The notes beneath the pieces are model-generated. The model worked only from the letters and a program-made list of their open reading frames with translations, was not told the origin of the DNA and did not search any database. From contig CAMNST010000001.1 in assembly GCA_946555465.1 (NCBI GenBank), positions 124,001-188,000 of the forward strand: a stretch of 64,000 nucleotides of DNA, in the 5' to 3' direction. The position numbers and the translations under genes are program-made. Shown here one piece after another: positions 50,733 to 58,258 of the stretch (positions are counted from its first letter, which is position 1; the number at the start of each line of letters is the position of its first letter). The stretch is from an uncultured Clostridia bacterium (GTDB taxonomy: Bacteria; Bacillota; Clostridia; Oscillospirales; Acutalibacteraceae).

Positions 50733-52517
50733 ATGAATTATCCAAAAATCGGCATAAGACCAACTATTGACGGACGCTGGGGCGGAGTAAGAGAGAGCCT
50801 TGAAGTTCAGACAATGGGAATGGCAAAATCAGCAAAAGAACTTATTGAATCCAATCTGTTTTATCCTGACGGAACACCTGTTCAGTGTGTTATCAGTGAT
50901 ACAACTATCGGCGGCGGAGCAGAAGCTGCAAAATGTGCTGAGCAGTTTGCAAATGAAAATGTAGTTGCAACGCTTTCTGTAACACCCTGCTGGTGTTACG
51001 GCTCTGAAACTTTTGATATGGATCCGCAGACAATTAAAGCAGTATGGGGTTTTAACGGCACAGAACGTCCGGGCGCCGTATATCTCGCAGCAGTTATGGC
51101 TGCATTTGCACAGAAAGGGCTTCCGGCATTCTCAATTTACGGTCATGATGTGCAGGATATGACTGATACAAGTGTTCCTGCTGACGTGGCGGAAAAGATT
51201 TTGCGTTTTGCAAAGGCTTCTGTTGCAGTAGGCTGGATGAAAAATAAATCGTATGTAAATCTCGGCGGTGTGGCTATGGGTATAGCCGGTTCATACTGTA
51301 ATGCCGATATGTTTCAGAAATATTTTGGCATACGTGCCGAGTGGGTTGATATGACCGAAATTGTACGCCGTATTACGCTTGAAATTTATGACCATGATGA
51401 ATATGACAAAGCACTTGCTTGGGTAAAGGAAAACTGCAAAGAAGGTTTTGATCTCAATGCCGGCAAGCAATTACCGGAAATTATAACAAAGTCAAAAGTT
51501 GTTCCCGCAGATAAAGACTGGGAATTTGTAACGAAAATGACTATGGTTATGCGTGATATTCTTTACGGCAATAAAAAACTCGACGAAATGGGCTGGCACG
51601 AAGAAGCGCTCGGCAAAAATGCAGTTGCCGGTGGATTCCAGGGTCAGAGAAACTGGACAGACTGGCTTCCGAATGCCGACTTTACCGAAGCAATTATGGC
51701 TTCAACGTTTGACTGGAACGGTGCAAAAATGCCAACGCCGTTTGCAACGGAAAATGATACCCTCAATGGTGTTTCAATGATGCTTGGCACTCTTGTTTCG
51801 CATACAGCACCTTGTTTCCACGATGTACGTACTTACTGGAGTCCTGATGCCTGTGAAAGAGTAACAGGTGTTCGCCCTGACGGTGCTGCTAAAGACGGAT
51901 TTATTCACCTGATCAATTCAGGCGCAACTGCTCTTGACGGCAGCGGTGCTGCTAAAAATGACAATGGCGAAGGCTGTATGAAACCATTCTGGGAAATGAC
52001 ACAGGAGGATATCAAATCCTGTCTTGATGCAACAGATTGGTGCAGAGCAAATTATGAATATTTCCGTGGCGGCGGATATTCAAGTCATTTCCGCTGTCAC
52101 GCTCAGATGCCTGTTACAATGCTCAGAGTTAATGTTGTTGACGGAATTGGTCCTGTTATGCAGATTGCCGAAGGTTACACTGTTGATTTGCCTGATGAAA
52201 TTCATAATACGATTGACAAGAGAACGGATCCTTCATGGCCCACAACATGGTTTGCACCAATACTTACAGGAAAGGGTGCATTTACCGACGTTTACAGTGT
52301 TATGGCAAACTGGGGTGCTAATCACGGCGTTACTGTTTACGGTCACGTGGGCGCAGATTTAATTACTTTAGCATCCATGCTTCGCATTCCTGTTAATATG
52401 CACAATGTATCGGAAGAAAAAATATTCCGTCCCCATGCTTGGTCCGCATTCGGAACAGACAATAAAGAGTCGGCAGATTACCGTGCATGCAAAAATTACG
52501 GACCTCTTTACAAATAA
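50733..52517 (+). CDS. fucI: L-fucose isomerase
   Basis: 594 residues, full length, with an AGAGAGG ribosome-binding site. [19 protein letters not shown] at the N-terminus and the C-terminal HCRCHAQ-like segment ([18 protein letters not shown]) are signatures of FucI, a manganese enzyme that converts L-fucose to L-fuculose. The [18 protein letters not shown] end is also conserved. It is the last gene of the fucA-fucU-kinase-fucI operon; no transporter or intact regulator gene is attached. Confidence 0.95.
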
Positions 52518-52539
52518 TTCAACTAATATATTGCCTAAA

Positions 52540-52580
52540 CAGTCGGTCAGATTCAGAATTTTGACCGGCTGTTATTTTTT
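52540..52580 (+). terminator. Terminator of the fucose operon
   Basis: CAGTCGGTCA (52540-52549) pairs with TGACCGGCTG (52562-52571, one G-T pair), followed by a run of T. Confidence 0.85.
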
Positions 52581-52638
52581 GCAGAATATAAAGAAAATGT
52601 TAATTTTATATATATATTGTACTTTTTGACAAAAAGTC

Positions 52639-52666
52639 TTGAAAAAATACATAAATAATGTATAAT
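52639..52666 (+). promoter_or_regulatory. Promoter of the dlt-like cassette
   Basis: TTGAAA (52639-52644), 16 bp spacer, TATAAT (52661-52666). A TTGACA at 52626 is too far upstream for this -10 box. Confidence 0.55.
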
Positions 52667-52716: not shown

Positions 52717-54231
52717 ATGAAAAATGTACTTGAATATTTAGAAAATACTGCGGCTGTTTACAGTGATAAAACTGCGGTAATCTGCAATGACAAAAGTATG
52801 AACTGGAGCAGTCTGCTTCTGACTGCAAAAAAAATCGGCTCCGCTGTTGCAGCAAAAAGTGAAGTGCGTATGCCGATTCCGGTTTTAATGGAAAAGGGCA
52901 TTGAAACACTTGCCTCATTCTTCGGAATTGCATATGCAGGCTGTTTTTATGTACTTGTTAATCCACAGTTGCCAAAAAGCAGAATAGAGCAGATTTTGTC
53001 TGTTCTCGGTTCAAAGTTTATTGTTACAGATAATGATAATCGTGCACTTGCCGAAGATGTTGCAGCAAGCAGTGAATTATTATTGATTGATGATTTAATC
53101 AGCAGTGAAATTTCAGAGTCGCTTCTTGACTCTGTAAGAAAACAGTCTCTTGATGTTGATCCGCTTTATGCAAATTTCACTTCGGGTTCAACCGGTGTTC
53201 CGAAAGGTGTTCTTGTATCACACAGAAGTGTTATTGATTTTATTGATATATTTGACGAAACTTTTTCAATCAGTGAAAATGATGTTATTGCCAATCAGGC
53301 TCCTTTTGATTTTGATGTTTCGGTTAAAGATATTTATTCTTCAATAAAAACGGGTGCAACACTTGTTTTGGTTCCGAAAGAACTTTTCTCAGCACCGATT
53401 CAACTGCTCGATTATCTGTGTGAAAACAAAATCACAACAATGATATGGGCGGTTTCCGCACTATGTCTTATAACAACTTTCCACGCTCTTGATTATAAAG
53501 TTCCCGAAACCGTAAATAAGATTTTGTTCAGCGGTGAAGTTATGCCTATGAAACATCTTAAAGAGTGGCAGAAACATCTTAAAGATGCGATGTTTGTAAA
53601 TCTTTACGGTCCTACTGAAGTAACTTGCAACTGCACGTATCATATAGTTGATAACAACTGTGATTATGAAAACGGAATCCCTATCGGACAAGCATTCAGA
53701 AACAGAGAAGTTTTCCTGCTTGACGAAAATAATAAGAGGGTTGTCGGTGAAAATATTACCGGTGAAATATGTGTAAAAGCAACAAGCCTTGCACTTGGAT
53801 ATTATAATAACCCTGAGCAGACAAATAAAAGTTTTGTTCAGAATCCGCTCAACGATAAATATATTGACATTATTTACCGTACCGGTGACCTTGGTAAATA
53901 TGACAGTGACGGAAATTTTGTTTTTCAGGGCAGAAAAGATTTCCAGATAAAGCATATGGGTCACCGAATTGAAATTGAAGAAATTGAAAAGGCAATGGAA
54001 TCATGTGATGAAGTTGAACGTGCATGCTGTGTGTTTGATGAACGAAAGAGCAAATTGTACGGCTTTTATATCGGCAATATTGATAAAAAAGAACTTCATA
54101 AACGTATGAAAGAAACGCTGCCGATATTTATGATACCGGGTGCTTTACGAAATGTTTCTGAAATGCCTCTTACCAAAAATGGTAAGATTGACAGAAAAAA
54201 ATTGCTTGAAACGGCAGGAGGCAGAAGATAA
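52717..54231 (+). CDS. AMP-forming amino acid ligase (DltA/NRPS A-domain-like)
   Basis: 504 residues, the size of DltA. Adenylation core motifs are FTSGSTGVPKGVLVSHRSV (A3), NLYGPTEVTCNCTYH (A5), YRTGDLGKYDSDGNFVFQGR (A7) and PLTKNGKIDRKKL with the catalytic Lys (A10). It should adenylate an amino acid and load it on the carrier protein at 55423. DltA uses D-alanine, but the binding-pocket code here could not be assigned and the presence of a PLP decarboxylase in the operon argues for another substrate. It overlaps the next gene by one base (TAATG). Confidence 0.85.
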   Translation: MKNVLEYLENTAAVYSDKTAVICNDKSMNWSSLLLTAKKIGSAVAAKSEVRMPIPVLMEKGIETLASFFGIAYAGCFYVLVNPQLPKSRIEQILSVLGSKFIVTDNDNRALAEDVAASSELLLIDDLISSEISESLLDSVRKQSLDVDPLYANFTSGSTGVPKGVLVSHRSVIDFIDIFDETFSISENDVIANQAPFDFDVSVKDIYSSIKTGATLVLVPKELFSAPIQLLDYLCENKITTMIWAVSALCLITTFHALDYKVPETVNKILFSGEVMPMKHLKEWQKHLKDAMFVNLYGPTEVTCNCTYHIVDNNCDYENGIPIGQAFRNREVFLLDENNKRVVGENITGEICVKATSLALGYYNNPEQTNKSFVQNPLNDKYIDIIYRTGDLGKYDSDGNFVFQGRKDFQIKHMGHRIEIEEIEKAMESCDEVERACCVFDERKSKLYGFYIGNIDKKELHKRMKETLPIFMIPGALRNVSEMPLTKNGKIDRKKLLETAGGRR

Positions 54232-55400
54232 TGCAGTATGAAAGTATTTTAAAAAATTTTAAGACACCTTTTTATGCATTTGATATACCGACACTTCGCA
54301 AGAGAATAGATTATATCAAATCATCAATTCCGAAGGGTGTAGATCTCTGTTATGCCGTAAAAGCAAATACTTTTATTATAAAAGAAGCCGAAAAATACGT
54401 TGAAAGGCTCGAGGTTTGCTCTCCGGGAGAGTTTGAAGTGTGTGAACATCTCAATACTCCGATGGAAAAAATCGTGGTTTCAGGTGTTTACAAAACGCCT
54501 GAATTTATTGAACGTATTATAAGCACTTATGATAATATTGGAATTTACACTGCTGAATCCTTAACTCAGTATGAACTTCTTAAAAAACTTGCTGAAAAAT
54601 ATAACAGAAAATTAAATGTTCTTATTCGTGTTACAAGCAAAAATCAATTCGGTGTTTCTGAAAATGATTTATTTGAAATGATTCAAGATAATAAAGGCTC
54701 AGAACACTTAACAATAATTGGTATTCAGTACTTCTCATCCACACAGAGAACTTCCCTAAAGAAATTCAGAAGAGAATTTGAATATCTTAACGATTTGATT
54801 TTAAGACTGAAAACCGATTATTCGTTTGATGTCAGAGAACTTGAATACGGAACAGGTTTTCCCGTATTTTATTTTCAATCTGATGAATTTGATGAGAAGA
54901 GTTATTTTGAAGAATTCAGCACGATGCTGAAAACACTGCCTGATAATATTAAAATAACCCTTGAAGTTGGCAGAAGTATTGCTGCTTCCTGCGGTTACTA
55001 TTTCACCAGTGTTGTTGACCGGAAAATAAATAAAGTAGGTAATTTTGCTATTGTTGACGGCGGTATAAATCATCTTGTATATTTTGGTCAGTCAATGGCT
55101 ATGAAAATTCCTCATATTGACCATTATCCCGAAAGGGAAGAGAACGTTACCGAAGAGTGGAATATTTGCGGTTCACTCTGCACGGTGAATGATATCATAG
55201 TAAAGTCATTGCCTCTTTCCGATTTAAAAATAAATGATGTGCTTGTGTTTAAAAATACGGGTGCTTATTGTATGTGCGAGGGAATATCGCTTTTCCTCAG
55301 CAGGGAACTGCCGGGTGTTGTTATTGTTAATGACGATGAGCAGTATACGCTTGTAAGAGATCATTTCAAAACAAGCAGTTTAAACAGTCCAAATTATTAA
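54231..55400 (+). CDS. Fold type III PLP decarboxylase (Orn/DAP/Arg family 2), BtrK-like by context
   Basis: 389 residues. K44 in LCYAVKANTF binds PLP, E245-S249 (EVGRS) is the cofactor phosphate motif, and C313-G-S-L-C317-T-V-N-D321 is the active-site cysteine/aspartate segment found in bacterial decarboxylases of this family. DAP decarboxylase LysA normally has CESGD here, so this is not LysA. In butirosin synthesis BtrK of this family decarboxylates a glutamyl group held on carrier protein BtrI; exosortase-associated clusters also pair this family with an AMP ligase and a carrier. The position between ligase and carrier suggests the same type of reaction. The actual substrate is unknown. 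Confidence 0.8.
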   Translation: MQYESILKNFKTPFYAFDIPTLRKRIDYIKSSIPKGVDLCYAVKANTFIIKEAEKYVERLEVCSPGEFEVCEHLNTPMEKIVVSGVYKTPEFIERIISTYDNIGIYTAESLTQYELLKKLAEKYNRKLNVLIRVTSKNQFGVSENDLFEMIQDNKGSEHLTIIGIQYFSSTQRTSLKKFRREFEYLNDLILRLKTDYSFDVRELEYGTGFPVFYFQSDEFDEKSYFEEFSTMLKTLPDNIKITLEVGRSIAASCGYYFTSVVDRKINKVGNFAIVDGGINHLVYFGQSMAMKIPHIDHYPEREENVTEEWNICGSLCTVNDIIVKSLPLSDLKINDVLVFKNTGAYCMCEGISLFLSRELPGVVIVNDDEQYTLVRDHFKTSSLNSPNY

Positions 55401-55422
55401 GTATATATAAGGAGTATTAATT

Positions 55423-55656
55423 ATGGAAACTTTAATCGAAATCTTGGAAGAAATTCAGCCGGAAGTTGATTATGAGACTTGTACTGATCTTATTGACGGT
55501 CATCGTCTTGACAGCCTTTCAATTCTTTCTCTTATTGCAGAAATTGAAGATGAATTTGACATTACAATTCCAACAGTTGAAATTGCACCTAAAAACTTCA
55601 ACAGTGCCGAGGCTATGTGGAAACTTATTACACGCCTTCAGGAGGAAGACGACTAA
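55423..55656 (+). CDS. Acyl/peptidyl carrier protein (DltC-like)
   Basis: 77 residues. S31 in GHRLDSLSILSLI is the phosphopantetheine attachment serine; the four-helix carrier pattern and acidic composition are clear. The usual DSL motif is present. It would carry the aminoacyl group between the ligase, the PLP enzyme and the MBOAT. The stop overlaps the MBOAT start by one base (TAATG). Confidence 0.9.
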   Translation: METLIEILEEIQPEVDYETCTDLIDGHRLDSLSILSLIAEIEDEFDITIPTVEIAPKNFNSAEAMWKLITRLQEEDD

Positions 55657-57245
55657 TGTCTTATTTCAGCCCCATTTATTTTGCTTTTTTTCTGCCGATA
55701 GTTGCTCTGCTGTACAGCGTTGTGCCAAAGAAAGCGAAACCTTATGTTCTTCTTGGTTCAAGTTACACATTCTTTTGGATGCTCAGCGGAAAACTTTTGG
55801 CATATCTTCTCTTCTCAACTGTATCAATTCATCACTTCGGTTTATGGCTTGATAAAATACAGACAGAGAAGAAAGCAGCAGTAAAATTGCTGCCGAGGGA
55901 AGAGCGAAAACCACTGAAGATGAAATATGATAAACGCCAGAACGGTATTCTCGCTCTGGCTGTAATTGTTCATATAGGTCTTTTGCTGGTGCTCAAATAT
56001 TCGCCTTTCTTTGCCGTTAATGTTAATAATCTTCTTGAAGCACTGAAATTTGATTTCAGAATGACTGAGCCGAATTTTATGATTCCCATCGGCATATCAT
56101 TCTATACACTTCAGGGTGTTTCATATATGACTGATGTTCGCAGAAGAGTTATAAAAGCAGATACAAATTTGCCCAGACTTGCTCTGTTTATGGGTTTTTT
56201 CCCTCAGATTATGGAAGGCCCGATTGTAAGATATAATGATACTGCCGTTTCGCTTTTTGAAGGCAAAAAGATTGAATACAAAAACTTTGTTTTCGGTGTG
56301 GAGCGAATCGCTTACGGTATGCTCAAAAAAATTGTTGTTGCAGACCGTCTGAACGATTTTGTTACTTCGGTATTTGACAATTATCAAAAATATGACGGCG
56401 GAATTATTGCGCTTGTTGCCATTGCTTATACCTGTCAGTTATATATGGACTTTTCGGGTGCGATGGATGTTGTTATCGGTTCTGCTGAAATATTCGGTGT
56501 TACATTGCCTGAAAACTTCCGTCAGCCGTTCTTCTCCAAAAGCATTTCAGATTTTTGGTCAAGATGGCATATTACACTTGGCACCTGGTTTAAAGACTAT
56601 ATTTTCTATCCGCTTTCACTTTCTAAGGGTCTTAAAAAGGTAACCGCTTTCGGAAGAAAACACCTCGGCAATCATTTTGGTCCTCTTCTTGCAGGTTCTA
56701 TAGCACTTTTCTGTGTATGGTTATGCAATGGCTTGTGGCATGGTTCTGCGTGGATGTATATATTCTTCGGAATGTATCACTTTGTATTGATACTCTCTGC
56801 CAATATTTGTGAGCCGATGTTCAAAAAAATTGCCGATGTTTTACATATCGACAGAAATCACGGTCCTTATGTAATTTTCAGAATGGTAAAAACTTCAATA
56901 CTTGTTGCTATCGGTGAACTCTTTTTCAGAGCACATGGCCTTGCCGAAGGATTGAAGATGTTCAAAAAGATATTTACTGATTTTACATTCTCAGGTATTA
57001 CCTCAGGAAAAGTTGATAAAGCAGGGCTTGACATCTGCGATTTTGCAATCGTAATGGTAGTTGTGCTTATTGTATTTATTATCGGTATTTTAAGAGAAAA
57101 GGGTATTGCAGTAAGAGAAGAACTCAGCAAAAAGAATATCGTTATACGCTGGGTTATCCTGCTTGCTTTAATTTTCTTTGTTATTATTTTTGGTGCCTAC
57201 GGAGCAGGCTATACTCCTGTTGAGCCAATGTATGCTGATTTTTAG
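55656..57245 (+). CDS. MBOAT membrane acyltransferase (DltB/AlgI-like)
   Basis: 529 residues, about eleven membrane segments. The family signatures are PIGISFYTLQGVSYMTDVRR, FPQIMEGPIVRY, YMDFSGAMDVVIG, PENFRQPFFSKSISDFWSRW and the catalytic H362 in NGLWHGSAWMY. DltB takes D-alanine from the carrier protein to teichoic acid across the membrane; AlgI and PatA homologues O-acetylate polysaccharides. In this operon it should transfer the carrier-bound aminoacyl group to an extracytoplasmic polymer. Longer than DltB (~400) and similar to AlgI-type. Start ATG 55656. Confidence 0.9.
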   Translation: MSYFSPIYFAFFLPIVALLYSVVPKKAKPYVLLGSSYTFFWMLSGKLLAYLLFSTVSIHHFGLWLDKIQTEKKAAVKLLPREERKPLKMKYDKRQNGILALAVIVHIGLLLVLKYSPFFAVNVNNLLEALKFDFRMTEPNFMIPIGISFYTLQGVSYMTDVRRRVIKADTNLPRLALFMGFFPQIMEGPIVRYNDTAVSLFEGKKIEYKNFVFGVERIAYGMLKKIVVADRLNDFVTSVFDNYQKYDGGIIALVAIAYTCQLYMDFSGAMDVVIGSAEIFGVTLPENFRQPFFSKSISDFWSRWHITLGTWFKDYIFYPLSLSKGLKKVTAFGRKHLGNHFGPLLAGSIALFCVWLCNGLWHGSAWMYIFFGMYHFVLILSANICEPMFKKIADVLHIDRNHGPYVIFRMVKTSILVAIGELFFRAHGLAEGLKMFKKIFTDFTFSGITSGKVDKAGLDICDFAIVMVVVLIVFIIGILREKGIAVREELSKKNIVIRWVILLALIFFVIIFGAYGAGYTPVEPMYADF

Positions 57246-57257
57246 GGGGTAGTATTT

Positions 57258-58214
57258 GTGACAGAAAAATTTAAATATGCAAAAATCGTTTCATTTACCG
57301 CTGTTGTAATGGCACTGATTATTTTGCTTTCGGCTGTTATAACTCCTAACGGCACAAGTGCAGGAGTCAGCAAATATGAAAAATCTAAACTGTGGGCAAT
57401 GGATGAAAGAGAAAATTCTATTGATGCTTTCTTTCTTGGTGACAGTGAAGTTTACAGTTCTGTTTCTCCTATGGAATTGTGGGATAAATATGGTTATGCC
57501 ACATATTCATGCAGCCACGGTGCAATAAAGAGTTACGAGTGTTACGATCTTCTTGAATCAATGCTTTCAAAGCAGAATCCGAAAATTGTATTTATTGAAG
57601 TGAATTTCCTTTATCGTAATTATGATAATGCTGATATGATTTATCATAAAATCAGTGAAAAACTGCCTCTTTTCAAATATCACGATGTTTGGAAAAGTTA
57701 TATAAATCCGAATCAGGAATATGAAAATCTTGACAATTATAGTTACAAGGGTTATTTGTTAAACAAGAAAACCCAAGCTGCTAAAAAGAAAACGTATATG
57801 GTTGAGACTGATTCAGTTCAGGATATCAAAAAAAATAATCTTGATTATTTTGATAAAATGTATAATCTTTGCAAAGAAAAAAACATTGAAGTTGTTCTTT
57901 TCTCAGCCCCCAGCAAAAAGAACTGGAACTATAAAAAACATAACGGCATTGTTAAGTTAGCAGATAAATATAAACTGGAATATCTTGATTTGAACCTTGT
58001 TGAACTTGATATTAACTGGTCAAAAGACACACGTGATAAAGGTGATCATGTTAATCACAAAGGTGCTATAAAGGTTACTGAATATCTTGGCAGTTATTTA
58101 TCAGAAAAGGGCATTCTTGAAGATCACCGCGGTGACGTTTCCTATGATGACTGGAATGAACTCTTAACGAAGTACAGAGAAAAGGAAAAAGAAAAGAGTA
58201 AAAGCAAAAAATAA
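57258..58214 (+). CDS. Membrane-anchored SGNH/DltD-like protein
   Basis: 318 residues, GTG start at 57258 with GGGGGT upstream. One N-terminal membrane anchor (about 9-28) and an extracytoplasmic domain with the SGNH blocks: G61-D62-S63 in FFLGDSEVYSS and a C-terminal D-x2-H in DKGDHVNHKGA. DltD and AlgJ/AlgX-like proteins of this type work beside MBOATs in moving acyl groups onto the final polymer. The C-terminal tail is highly charged (Lys/Glu). Last gene of the cassette, followed by a strong terminator. Confidence 0.85.
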   Translation: MTEKFKYAKIVSFTAVVMALIILLSAVITPNGTSAGVSKYEKSKLWAMDERENSIDAFFLGDSEVYSSVSPMELWDKYGYATYSCSHGAIKSYECYDLLESMLSKQNPKIVFIEVNFLYRNYDNADMIYHKISEKLPLFKYHDVWKSYINPNQEYENLDNYSYKGYLLNKKTQAAKKKTYMVETDSVQDIKKNNLDYFDKMYNLCKEKNIEVVLFSAPSKKNWNYKKHNGIVKLADKYKLEYLDLNLVELDINWSKDTRDKGDHVNHKGAIKVTEYLGSYLSEKGILEDHRGDVSYDDWNELLTKYREKEKEKSKSKK

Positions 58215-58223
58215 TATTTGCAT

Positions 58224-58258
58224 AAAAAAGACCTTACTAAAACAGTAAGGTCTTTTTT
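58224..58258. terminator. Strong bidirectional terminator
   Basis: 15 bp stem AAAAAAGACCTTACT (58224-58238) with AGTAAGGTCTTTTTT (58244-58258), between the dlt-like cassette and convergent proC. Confidence 0.93.

Follow-up and report, generated by a model that had tools for sequence, protein, structure and literature searches.

A run of five genes, which we read as a Dlt-like system for acylating polymers that includes a decarboxylation step, lies on the forward strand of a 64,000-nucleotide stretch of DNA from an uncultured Clostridia bacterium (contig CAMNST010000001.1, positions 124,001 to 188,000; this whole stretch is called the window below). We put the probability of this reading, which builds on sequence comparison, at roughly two in three. 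The genes (window positions 52717-58214, +) encode a ligase, a fold-III pyridoxal phosphate (PLP) decarboxylase, a carrier protein, an MBOAT protein and an SGNH protein, and are tightly packed with a strong terminator at the end. Judged by gene families and by active-site residues, a Dlt variant that decarboxylates on the carrier is well supported. Gene content and its conservation, a constant ligase pocket, the loss of LysA residues from the PLP enzyme and a shuttle tyrosine in the MBOAT protein are features of the sequences themselves.

A preliminary description of this DNA had placed the five families in one tight operon closed by a strong terminator, which Pfam and fold assignments and the fold score of the terminator bear out. 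From its overall reading a conserved dlt-like cassette also stands, with a BtrK-like PLP decarboxylase apart from LysA and a ligase pocket unlike that of DltA-like ligases; the acyl group and the polymer are treated as conditional below. The features are as follows.

52639..52666 (+): candidate sigma-70 promoter, TTGAAA-16-TATAAT, from a consensus scan alone (30 matches in the region, 20.7 expected)
52717..54231 (+): gene of the ligase with an adenylation domain (A-domain), 504 amino acids (aa); Pfam PF00501 and PF13193, NCBIfam AA-adenyl-dom at 321 bits; pocket DVKSLSLCNK
54231..55400 (+): gene of the fold-III PLP decarboxylase, 389 aa; Lys44, Cys317, Asp321, Tyr284, Thr318
55423..55656 (+): gene of the carrier protein, 77 aa; Pfam PF00550, phosphopantetheine Ser31 (DSL)
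55656..57245 (+): gene of the MBOAT protein, 529 aa; Pfam PF03062, His362, C-terminal shuttle motif PMYADF with Tyr526
57258..58214 (+): gene of the SGNH protein with an N-terminal helix, 318 aa; called from alignment, conservation, model and fold matches; Ser63, His264
58224..58258 (+): intrinsic terminator, 15-pair hairpin and T run, fold z -8.0

A close copy of the PLP enzyme is found in 7 of 60 relatives (the bacterium's own genome counted) at 48-100% identity. The score gap is clean, since these copies exceed 400 bits and all others fall below 75 bits or gave no score. All five genes are present in the six other relatives with a close PLP enzyme, the ligase of one (L039 in our numbering of loci) running off the contig. 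Scanning genome contigs with a seven-sequence alignment of the PLP enzyme gave at least 44 further copies (L041-L084) of 38-55% identity, the next enzymes lying at 24-28%. Fifty related loci were examined, five of which lose genes at a contig end (L058, L065, L072, L082, L084). The exact order ligase-PLP-carrier-MBOAT-SGNH is kept in 36 of the remaining 45 (30 without additions, 4 carrying a second SGNH gene, 1 having an extra MBOAT gene upstream and 1 whose MBOAT gene is in two frames). Six loci are rearranged or divergent (L055, L067, L071, L073, L075, L081) and keep all or nearly all five genes, with SGNH scores of only 35-36 bits in L075 and L081, and three (L077-L079) are missing the MBOAT and SGNH genes. 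As the loci were selected via the PLP enzyme, these counts describe its companions and not how often dlt-like sets include a PLP enzyme. The five families are thus conserved as a unit, and the conserved gene order rules out a chance neighbourhood.

Two arrangements among these loci deserve mention. A tandem pair of SGNH genes stands behind the MBOAT gene in L036, L037, L038 and L039, perhaps serving two acceptor polymers. On a contig titled Treponema (L081:9393-12320) the MBOAT gene and a divergent SGNH gene are on the opposite strand beside ligase, decarboxylase and carrier, by eye among sugar genes.

According to the record titles, the cassette occurs in Clostridia, Traorella, Thomasclavelia, Eggerthellaceae, Coriobacteriaceae, Atopobiaceae and Treponema, the non-clostridial taxa including members of what we take to be the classes Erysipelotrichia and Coriobacteriia. 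Most bearers are metagenome-assembled, and isolated unexpected assignments (Treponema, Acetobacterium wieringae) may reflect errors of binning; Agathobaculum sp. Marseille-P7918 and Lacrimispora algidixylanolytica SPL73 bear no metagenome mark in the title. Among the 295 genomes of the order, 13 (belonging to 9 of 148 genera) encode the PLP enzyme at an E-value of 1e-60, and only 16 a DltA-like ligase at 1e-100 or better; the DltA cut-off is reached by none of the 295. The preliminary description had raised the question whether cassette genomes also carry a normal dlt operon. No genome holds both the PLP enzyme and a DltA-like ligase, which agrees with chance (about 0.7 expected), and mutual exclusion was dropped as support. 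Among the titles and abstract openings listed in searches of the open-licence literature, none describes this gene set.

The PLP enzyme was studied in a set of 50 sequences (the window and 49 loci; the L082 copy spans two frames) against 21 LysA-side sequences, 10 from relatives and 11 hand-picked from loci L086-L120. The catalytic lysine and the Cys-x3-Asp motif are retained in the cassette decarboxylases. The glutamate that recognises the distal amine in LysA is Thr or Ser in 50/50 cassette enzymes and the arginine for the distal carboxylate is Tyr in 50/50, while both are kept in 21/21 LysA-side sequences. The roles of these residues are taken from a study of T. maritima LysA, in which the change E315T abolished most activity on diaminopimelate (DAP) (PMC8277567). 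BtrK and the exosortase-type enzyme of L085, the only two compared, are also without both residues. In the final, unrooted tree (39 of 73 rows; the deep-branching L004, L017 and L030, which may be other decarboxylases, were left out) the cassette enzymes form their own clade apart from LysA, with ultrafast bootstrap and SH-aLRT supports of 100/100 and 100/97. The window enzyme scores 175 bits with the lysA model, whose cut-off is 297.9. An ordinary DAP decarboxylase was rejected on the lost distal-site residues and the separate clade. A position of the PLP protein inside LysA, or its absence from the operon in relatives, which would have told against the preliminary description, was looked for and did not occur.

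Ten pocket positions of the ligase were read by A-domain motif alignment to GrsA numbering in 48 sequences (the window and 47 of the 50 loci, those of L039, L082 and L084 being cut); the ligase of L133 was left in pieces. The pocket DVKSLSLCNK is exact in 40/48, and the other eight differ by conservative V/L, S/A or L/M exchanges. Asp200, Lys204 and Asn305 are present in all 48, and Lys490 is invariant. The corresponding pockets in three DltA-like ligases of the order are DVVSLCTVLK, DLLSICTVLK and DLATYCASAK, and the cassette pocket has Ser where the first two have Cys. This difference leads us to reject a D-alanine ligase. The single, poorly aligned pocket of the exosortase-type ligase at L085 was not used. 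A third ligase type (L152:4692-6505, pocket DAPSMCLYAK) is accompanied by a carrier protein and, judged by eye, belongs to a cluster of polysaccharide and ABC-transporter genes.

From their positions in the pocket, Asp200 is the likely partner of an amine, and Lys204, a helix turn further on, that of a carboxylate. The conservation of the lysine suggests that the loaded acid still holds a second carboxylate, so that decarboxylation comes after loading. PLP enzymes of this kind need a free alpha-amine and a free alpha-carboxylate on the residue that they decarboxylate; the thioester would therefore be on the side chain, as beta-Asp, gamma-Glu or a longer homologue.

On the export side, the phosphopantetheine serine of the carrier is present in 48/48 rows, and the MBOAT protein matches DltB of the PDB with an E-value of 6.5e-23. 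The MBOAT set had 47 rows, one a piece of the two-frame L041 copy that does not reach the C-terminus; in the 46 usable rows the shuttle tyrosine is invariant, and the motif closes with Phe in 43 rows and with Tyr in the other 3. In the Dlt pathway, according to PMC12148441, the acyl group passes from DltC to DltB, to the tyrosine of DltX (FXYXXF) and to DltD. The DltB-like protein of L151 (377 aa, beside a DltA-like ligase; the one compared) is without the fused motif, and a DltX-like open reading frame ending FVYNEF stands at the end of the DltA-like gene run there (L151:3172-3354, -). In the window operon we looked for a credible separate DltX-like reading frame with FXYXXF and found none; a 74-aa frame at 52405-52629 ending YIYCTF fits the pattern, begins out of frame within a fucose isomerase gene and was dismissed as chance. 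The MBOAT protein with its fused tyrosine stands beside a dedicated carrier, so that this system combines a carrier with a fused shuttle; the preliminary description is silent on the fused motif.

Fold matches of a predicted model assign an SGNH fold to the fifth protein. Ser63 is found in 46/48 rows (Cys in two) and His264 in 47/48 (one gap), and from the motif these two would be the catalytic residues. A sequence profile of this protein found nothing useful in the PDB, and DltD was not among the best 50 fold matches listed in either of two comparisons. The window operon has the hallmarks of MBOAT-SGNH polymer acyltransferases, namely the MBOAT histidine, the shuttle tyrosine and the SGNH serine and histidine.

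Several observations weigh against the proposed system and are collected here. The window enzyme reaches only 148 bits with the TIGR03099 model (cut-off 478.45), and its lysA score given above is also below the cut-off. BtrK and LysA rows tie in the structural ranking, which was rejected as proof of BtrK kinship; as the trees are also unrooted, the closeness to BtrK rests on residues, and the aromatic residue replacing the PLP-stacking histidine, one of the BtrK-like ones, also occurs in 3/21 LysA-side rows. The Dlt models stay below their curated cut-offs (TIGR01734 for DltA 275/559.85, TIGR04091 for DltB 153/375 and TIGR01688 for DltC 16.8/52.35 bits). The shuttle motif starts with Pro in 41/46 rows (Phe in 4, Leu in 1) instead of the Phe of FXYXXF. 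The GrsA numbering behind the pocket codes is the one we assume, and a lysine at that pocket position also occurs in A-domains activating Glu via the alpha-carboxyl; such a product would weigh against the proposal because a PLP enzyme of this kind could not decarboxylate it. Furthermore, no regulator pair stands beside the window cassette or in 26 of 36 loci, and polymer ester transfer is not the sole use of the loaded carrier, since three loci have ligase, PLP enzyme and carrier without MBOAT and SGNH genes.

The operon resembles several known systems in part. With the Dlt pathway (DltA, DltC, DltB, DltX, DltD) it shares carrier-fed MBOAT and SGNH transfer and a homologous ligase, carrier and MBOAT protein; it differs by the extra PLP decarboxylase, the ligase pocket, the shuttle tyrosine fused to the MBOAT protein and the lack of DltX. 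In butirosin synthesis (BtrI, BtrJ, BtrK), BtrK is the closest PDB sequence and by its PDB name an L-glutamyl-carrier decarboxylase, but the product is an antibiotic side chain and there is no MBOAT; BtrJ is another ligase type. The exosortase A-associated set (TIGR03098, TIGR03099) has the same three kinds of enzyme, and the L085 decarboxylase, which scores 425 of 478 bits with TIGR03099, shares the lost LysA residues; no MBOAT or SGNH match was found at that one locus, and the window enzyme is far below the cut-off. In the vicenistatin/fluvirucin module (VinN/FlvN, VinL, VinO), likened here by description and not by sequence, an A-domain ligase attaches (methyl)aspartate to a stand-alone carrier, where a PLP enzyme decarboxylates it, and the product goes to a polyketide synthase without MBOAT or SGNH partners. 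According to PMC11284099, VinN has to put 3-methylaspartate on VinL before VinO decarboxylates, FlvN takes Asp, and a conserved A-domain Asp of the ligase group contacts the beta-amine. PatA/PatB and AlgI-type O-acetyltransferases also have a shuttle tyrosine fused to the MBOAT C-terminus and an SGNH partner, but, according to PMC12148441, use acetyl-coenzyme A and are without dedicated ligase or carrier.

We infer the substrate, the order of the steps, the polymer and the physiological role as follows. The substrate of the ligase would be an acidic amino acid, activated at the carboxyl of the side chain (the beta-carboxyl of Asp or the gamma-carboxyl of Glu) while Asp200 contacts the amine and Lys204 the free alpha-carboxylate, and then loaded on the phosphopantetheine of Ser31. 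The BtrK/VinO-like PLP enzyme would then strip the alpha-carboxylate on the carrier, to give a thioester of beta-alanine or gamma-aminobutyrate whose primary amine is free. The MBOAT protein would move the group from the carrier across the membrane to its own Tyr526, and Ser63 of the SGNH protein would accept it and esterify a hydroxyl of an extracytoplasmic glycopolymer. The outcome would be a positively charged surface ester in the role of D-alanine.

Glutamyl to gamma-aminobutyryl (GABA) was the example of the preliminary description. Beta-aspartyl to beta-alanyl fits at least as well, because the pocket still has the Asp whose role is to hold an amine close to the carboxyl being activated. 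Asp may be slightly favoured as substrate by analogy, because the VinN/FlvN chemistry is the closest described and, according to PMC11284099, the Asp there contacts the beta-amine. A beta-alanyl group is our tentative choice, at a little under even odds, and GABA is the somewhat unlikely second.

The order of the first two steps could be the reverse, with the PLP enzyme acting on the free amino acid, the ligase loading the product (beta-alanine, GABA or other) and the later steps unchanged. Incednine IdnL3 acts in this way on free beta-glutamate, whose product is then loaded (PMC11284099). We consider this order improbable, as the pocket lysine (48/48) would be without a partner in beta-alanine or GABA and the LysA residues recognising a free distal group are lost.

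Activation of meso-DAP at its L-centre, followed by decarboxylation to a lysyl-carrier and a lysine surface group, would agree with the LysA fold of the enzyme and the alpha-amine Asp kept in the ligase. The two DAP-recognition residues are gone in all cassette enzymes, though contacts could differ if the L-centre is the thioester, and we regard a lysyl group as very unlikely.

Little more can be said for a secreted small molecule or glycolipid, instead of a cell-wall polymer, as the product of the five genes, to which we likewise give small weight. Ligase-PLP-carrier trios do serve natural products (vicenistatin, PMC11284099; butirosin, by PDB name), and polymer genes do not adjoin the window cassette. 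Against this, the operon is without synthase or exporter, and the MBOAT-SGNH pairs that PMC12148441 describes act on envelope polymers. Genes of a response regulator and a histidine kinase are found no more than 4 kb upstream in 10 of the 36 cassette loci that have at least 3 kb upstream, and in 0 of 32 LysA loci; the contrast is indicative, the models having been built from cassette loci, which favours finding pairs there, and the control loci coming from other phyla. The pairs are upstream of the ligase in L048, L050, L051, L058, L061, L065, L074, L076 and L080 and on the other strand in L054. In the cases checked the regulator belongs to the OmpR type. Of 10 proteins from six of these loci, 9 were confirmed by Pfam; the other, from L054, has a VTT domain and lies between the pair and the ligase. 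Such neighbours are a common setting for envelope-defence genes and count towards the proposed system. Finally, L081 and the three loci with the trio alone lie among polysaccharide-type genes, partly by eye.

These three loci (L077:6317-13190 and L078:3055-9616, both titled Lachnospiraceae, and L079:753-6897, Clostridiaceae) have nearly the same ligase pocket. Among their neighbours, a DegT aminotransferase and a hexapeptide transferase were assigned by Pfam (one protein each) and the others by eye. Their setting suggests a loading module that can be uncoupled from MBOAT-SGNH export.

Least probable of all is an ordinary D-alanine Dlt system with a LysA-type decarboxylase merely co-located, which would account for the relation of ligase, carrier and MBOAT protein to DltA, DltC and DltB and for the SGNH fold, but not for the constant pocket unlike DltA-like ligases, the fused motif instead of DltX, or a PLP enzyme adjoining the ligase across loci, though the loci were chosen by that enzyme.

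The window genome has one MBOAT protein, no DltA-like ligase other than that of the cassette in a scan at an E-value of 1e-30, and one additional AMP-binding protein, of another kind. An LtaS-type teichoic acid synthase was not found in this genome, as the one protein in it that matches PF00884 is a sulfatase carrying SGSH_C, and teichoic acid via LtaS was set aside. Four proteins match PF04464 (CDP-glycerol glycerophosphotransferase). Such genes at L153:2968-6432 and L154:4033-8533, one fused to a glycosyltransferase (1155 aa), are a possible source of the acceptor polymer.

A sister four-gene dlt-like cassette without PLP enzyme occurs in the same genus (L148:4597-9219, L149:2379-6518, L150:2395-6834), with ligase, carrier, MBOAT protein with fused shuttle tyrosine (LLYANF and LIYANF in the three) and SGNH protein. 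The ligases of this type (n=13, same genus) have the pocket SMTSLALDIK or near, in which Ser stands where the amine-binding Asp sits, so that an alpha-amino acid is an unlikely acyl group for them.

Gram-positive bacteria adjust their surface charge and their resistance to cationic peptides through D-alanine esters. The presence of another amine ester, of distinct chemistry, would alter what is sought in the envelopes of this order, and GABA or beta-alanine would be a host-active or a beta-amino acid on a gut-bacterial surface. A carrier-fed MBOAT protein with its own tyrosine would break the described split between carrier plus DltX and coenzyme A plus fused motif; the shuttle tyrosine and the pocket lysine are simple experimental handles. 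We hold it an even chance that a widespread and so far unrecognised pathway puts esters of beta-alanine or GABA, made by carrier-bound decarboxylation, on the surface glycopolymers of gut Clostridia and of some Erysipelotrichia, Coriobacteriia and Treponema, as one of a dlt-like family that varies by acyl group and has a carrier-fed MBOAT protein with its own shuttle tyrosine.

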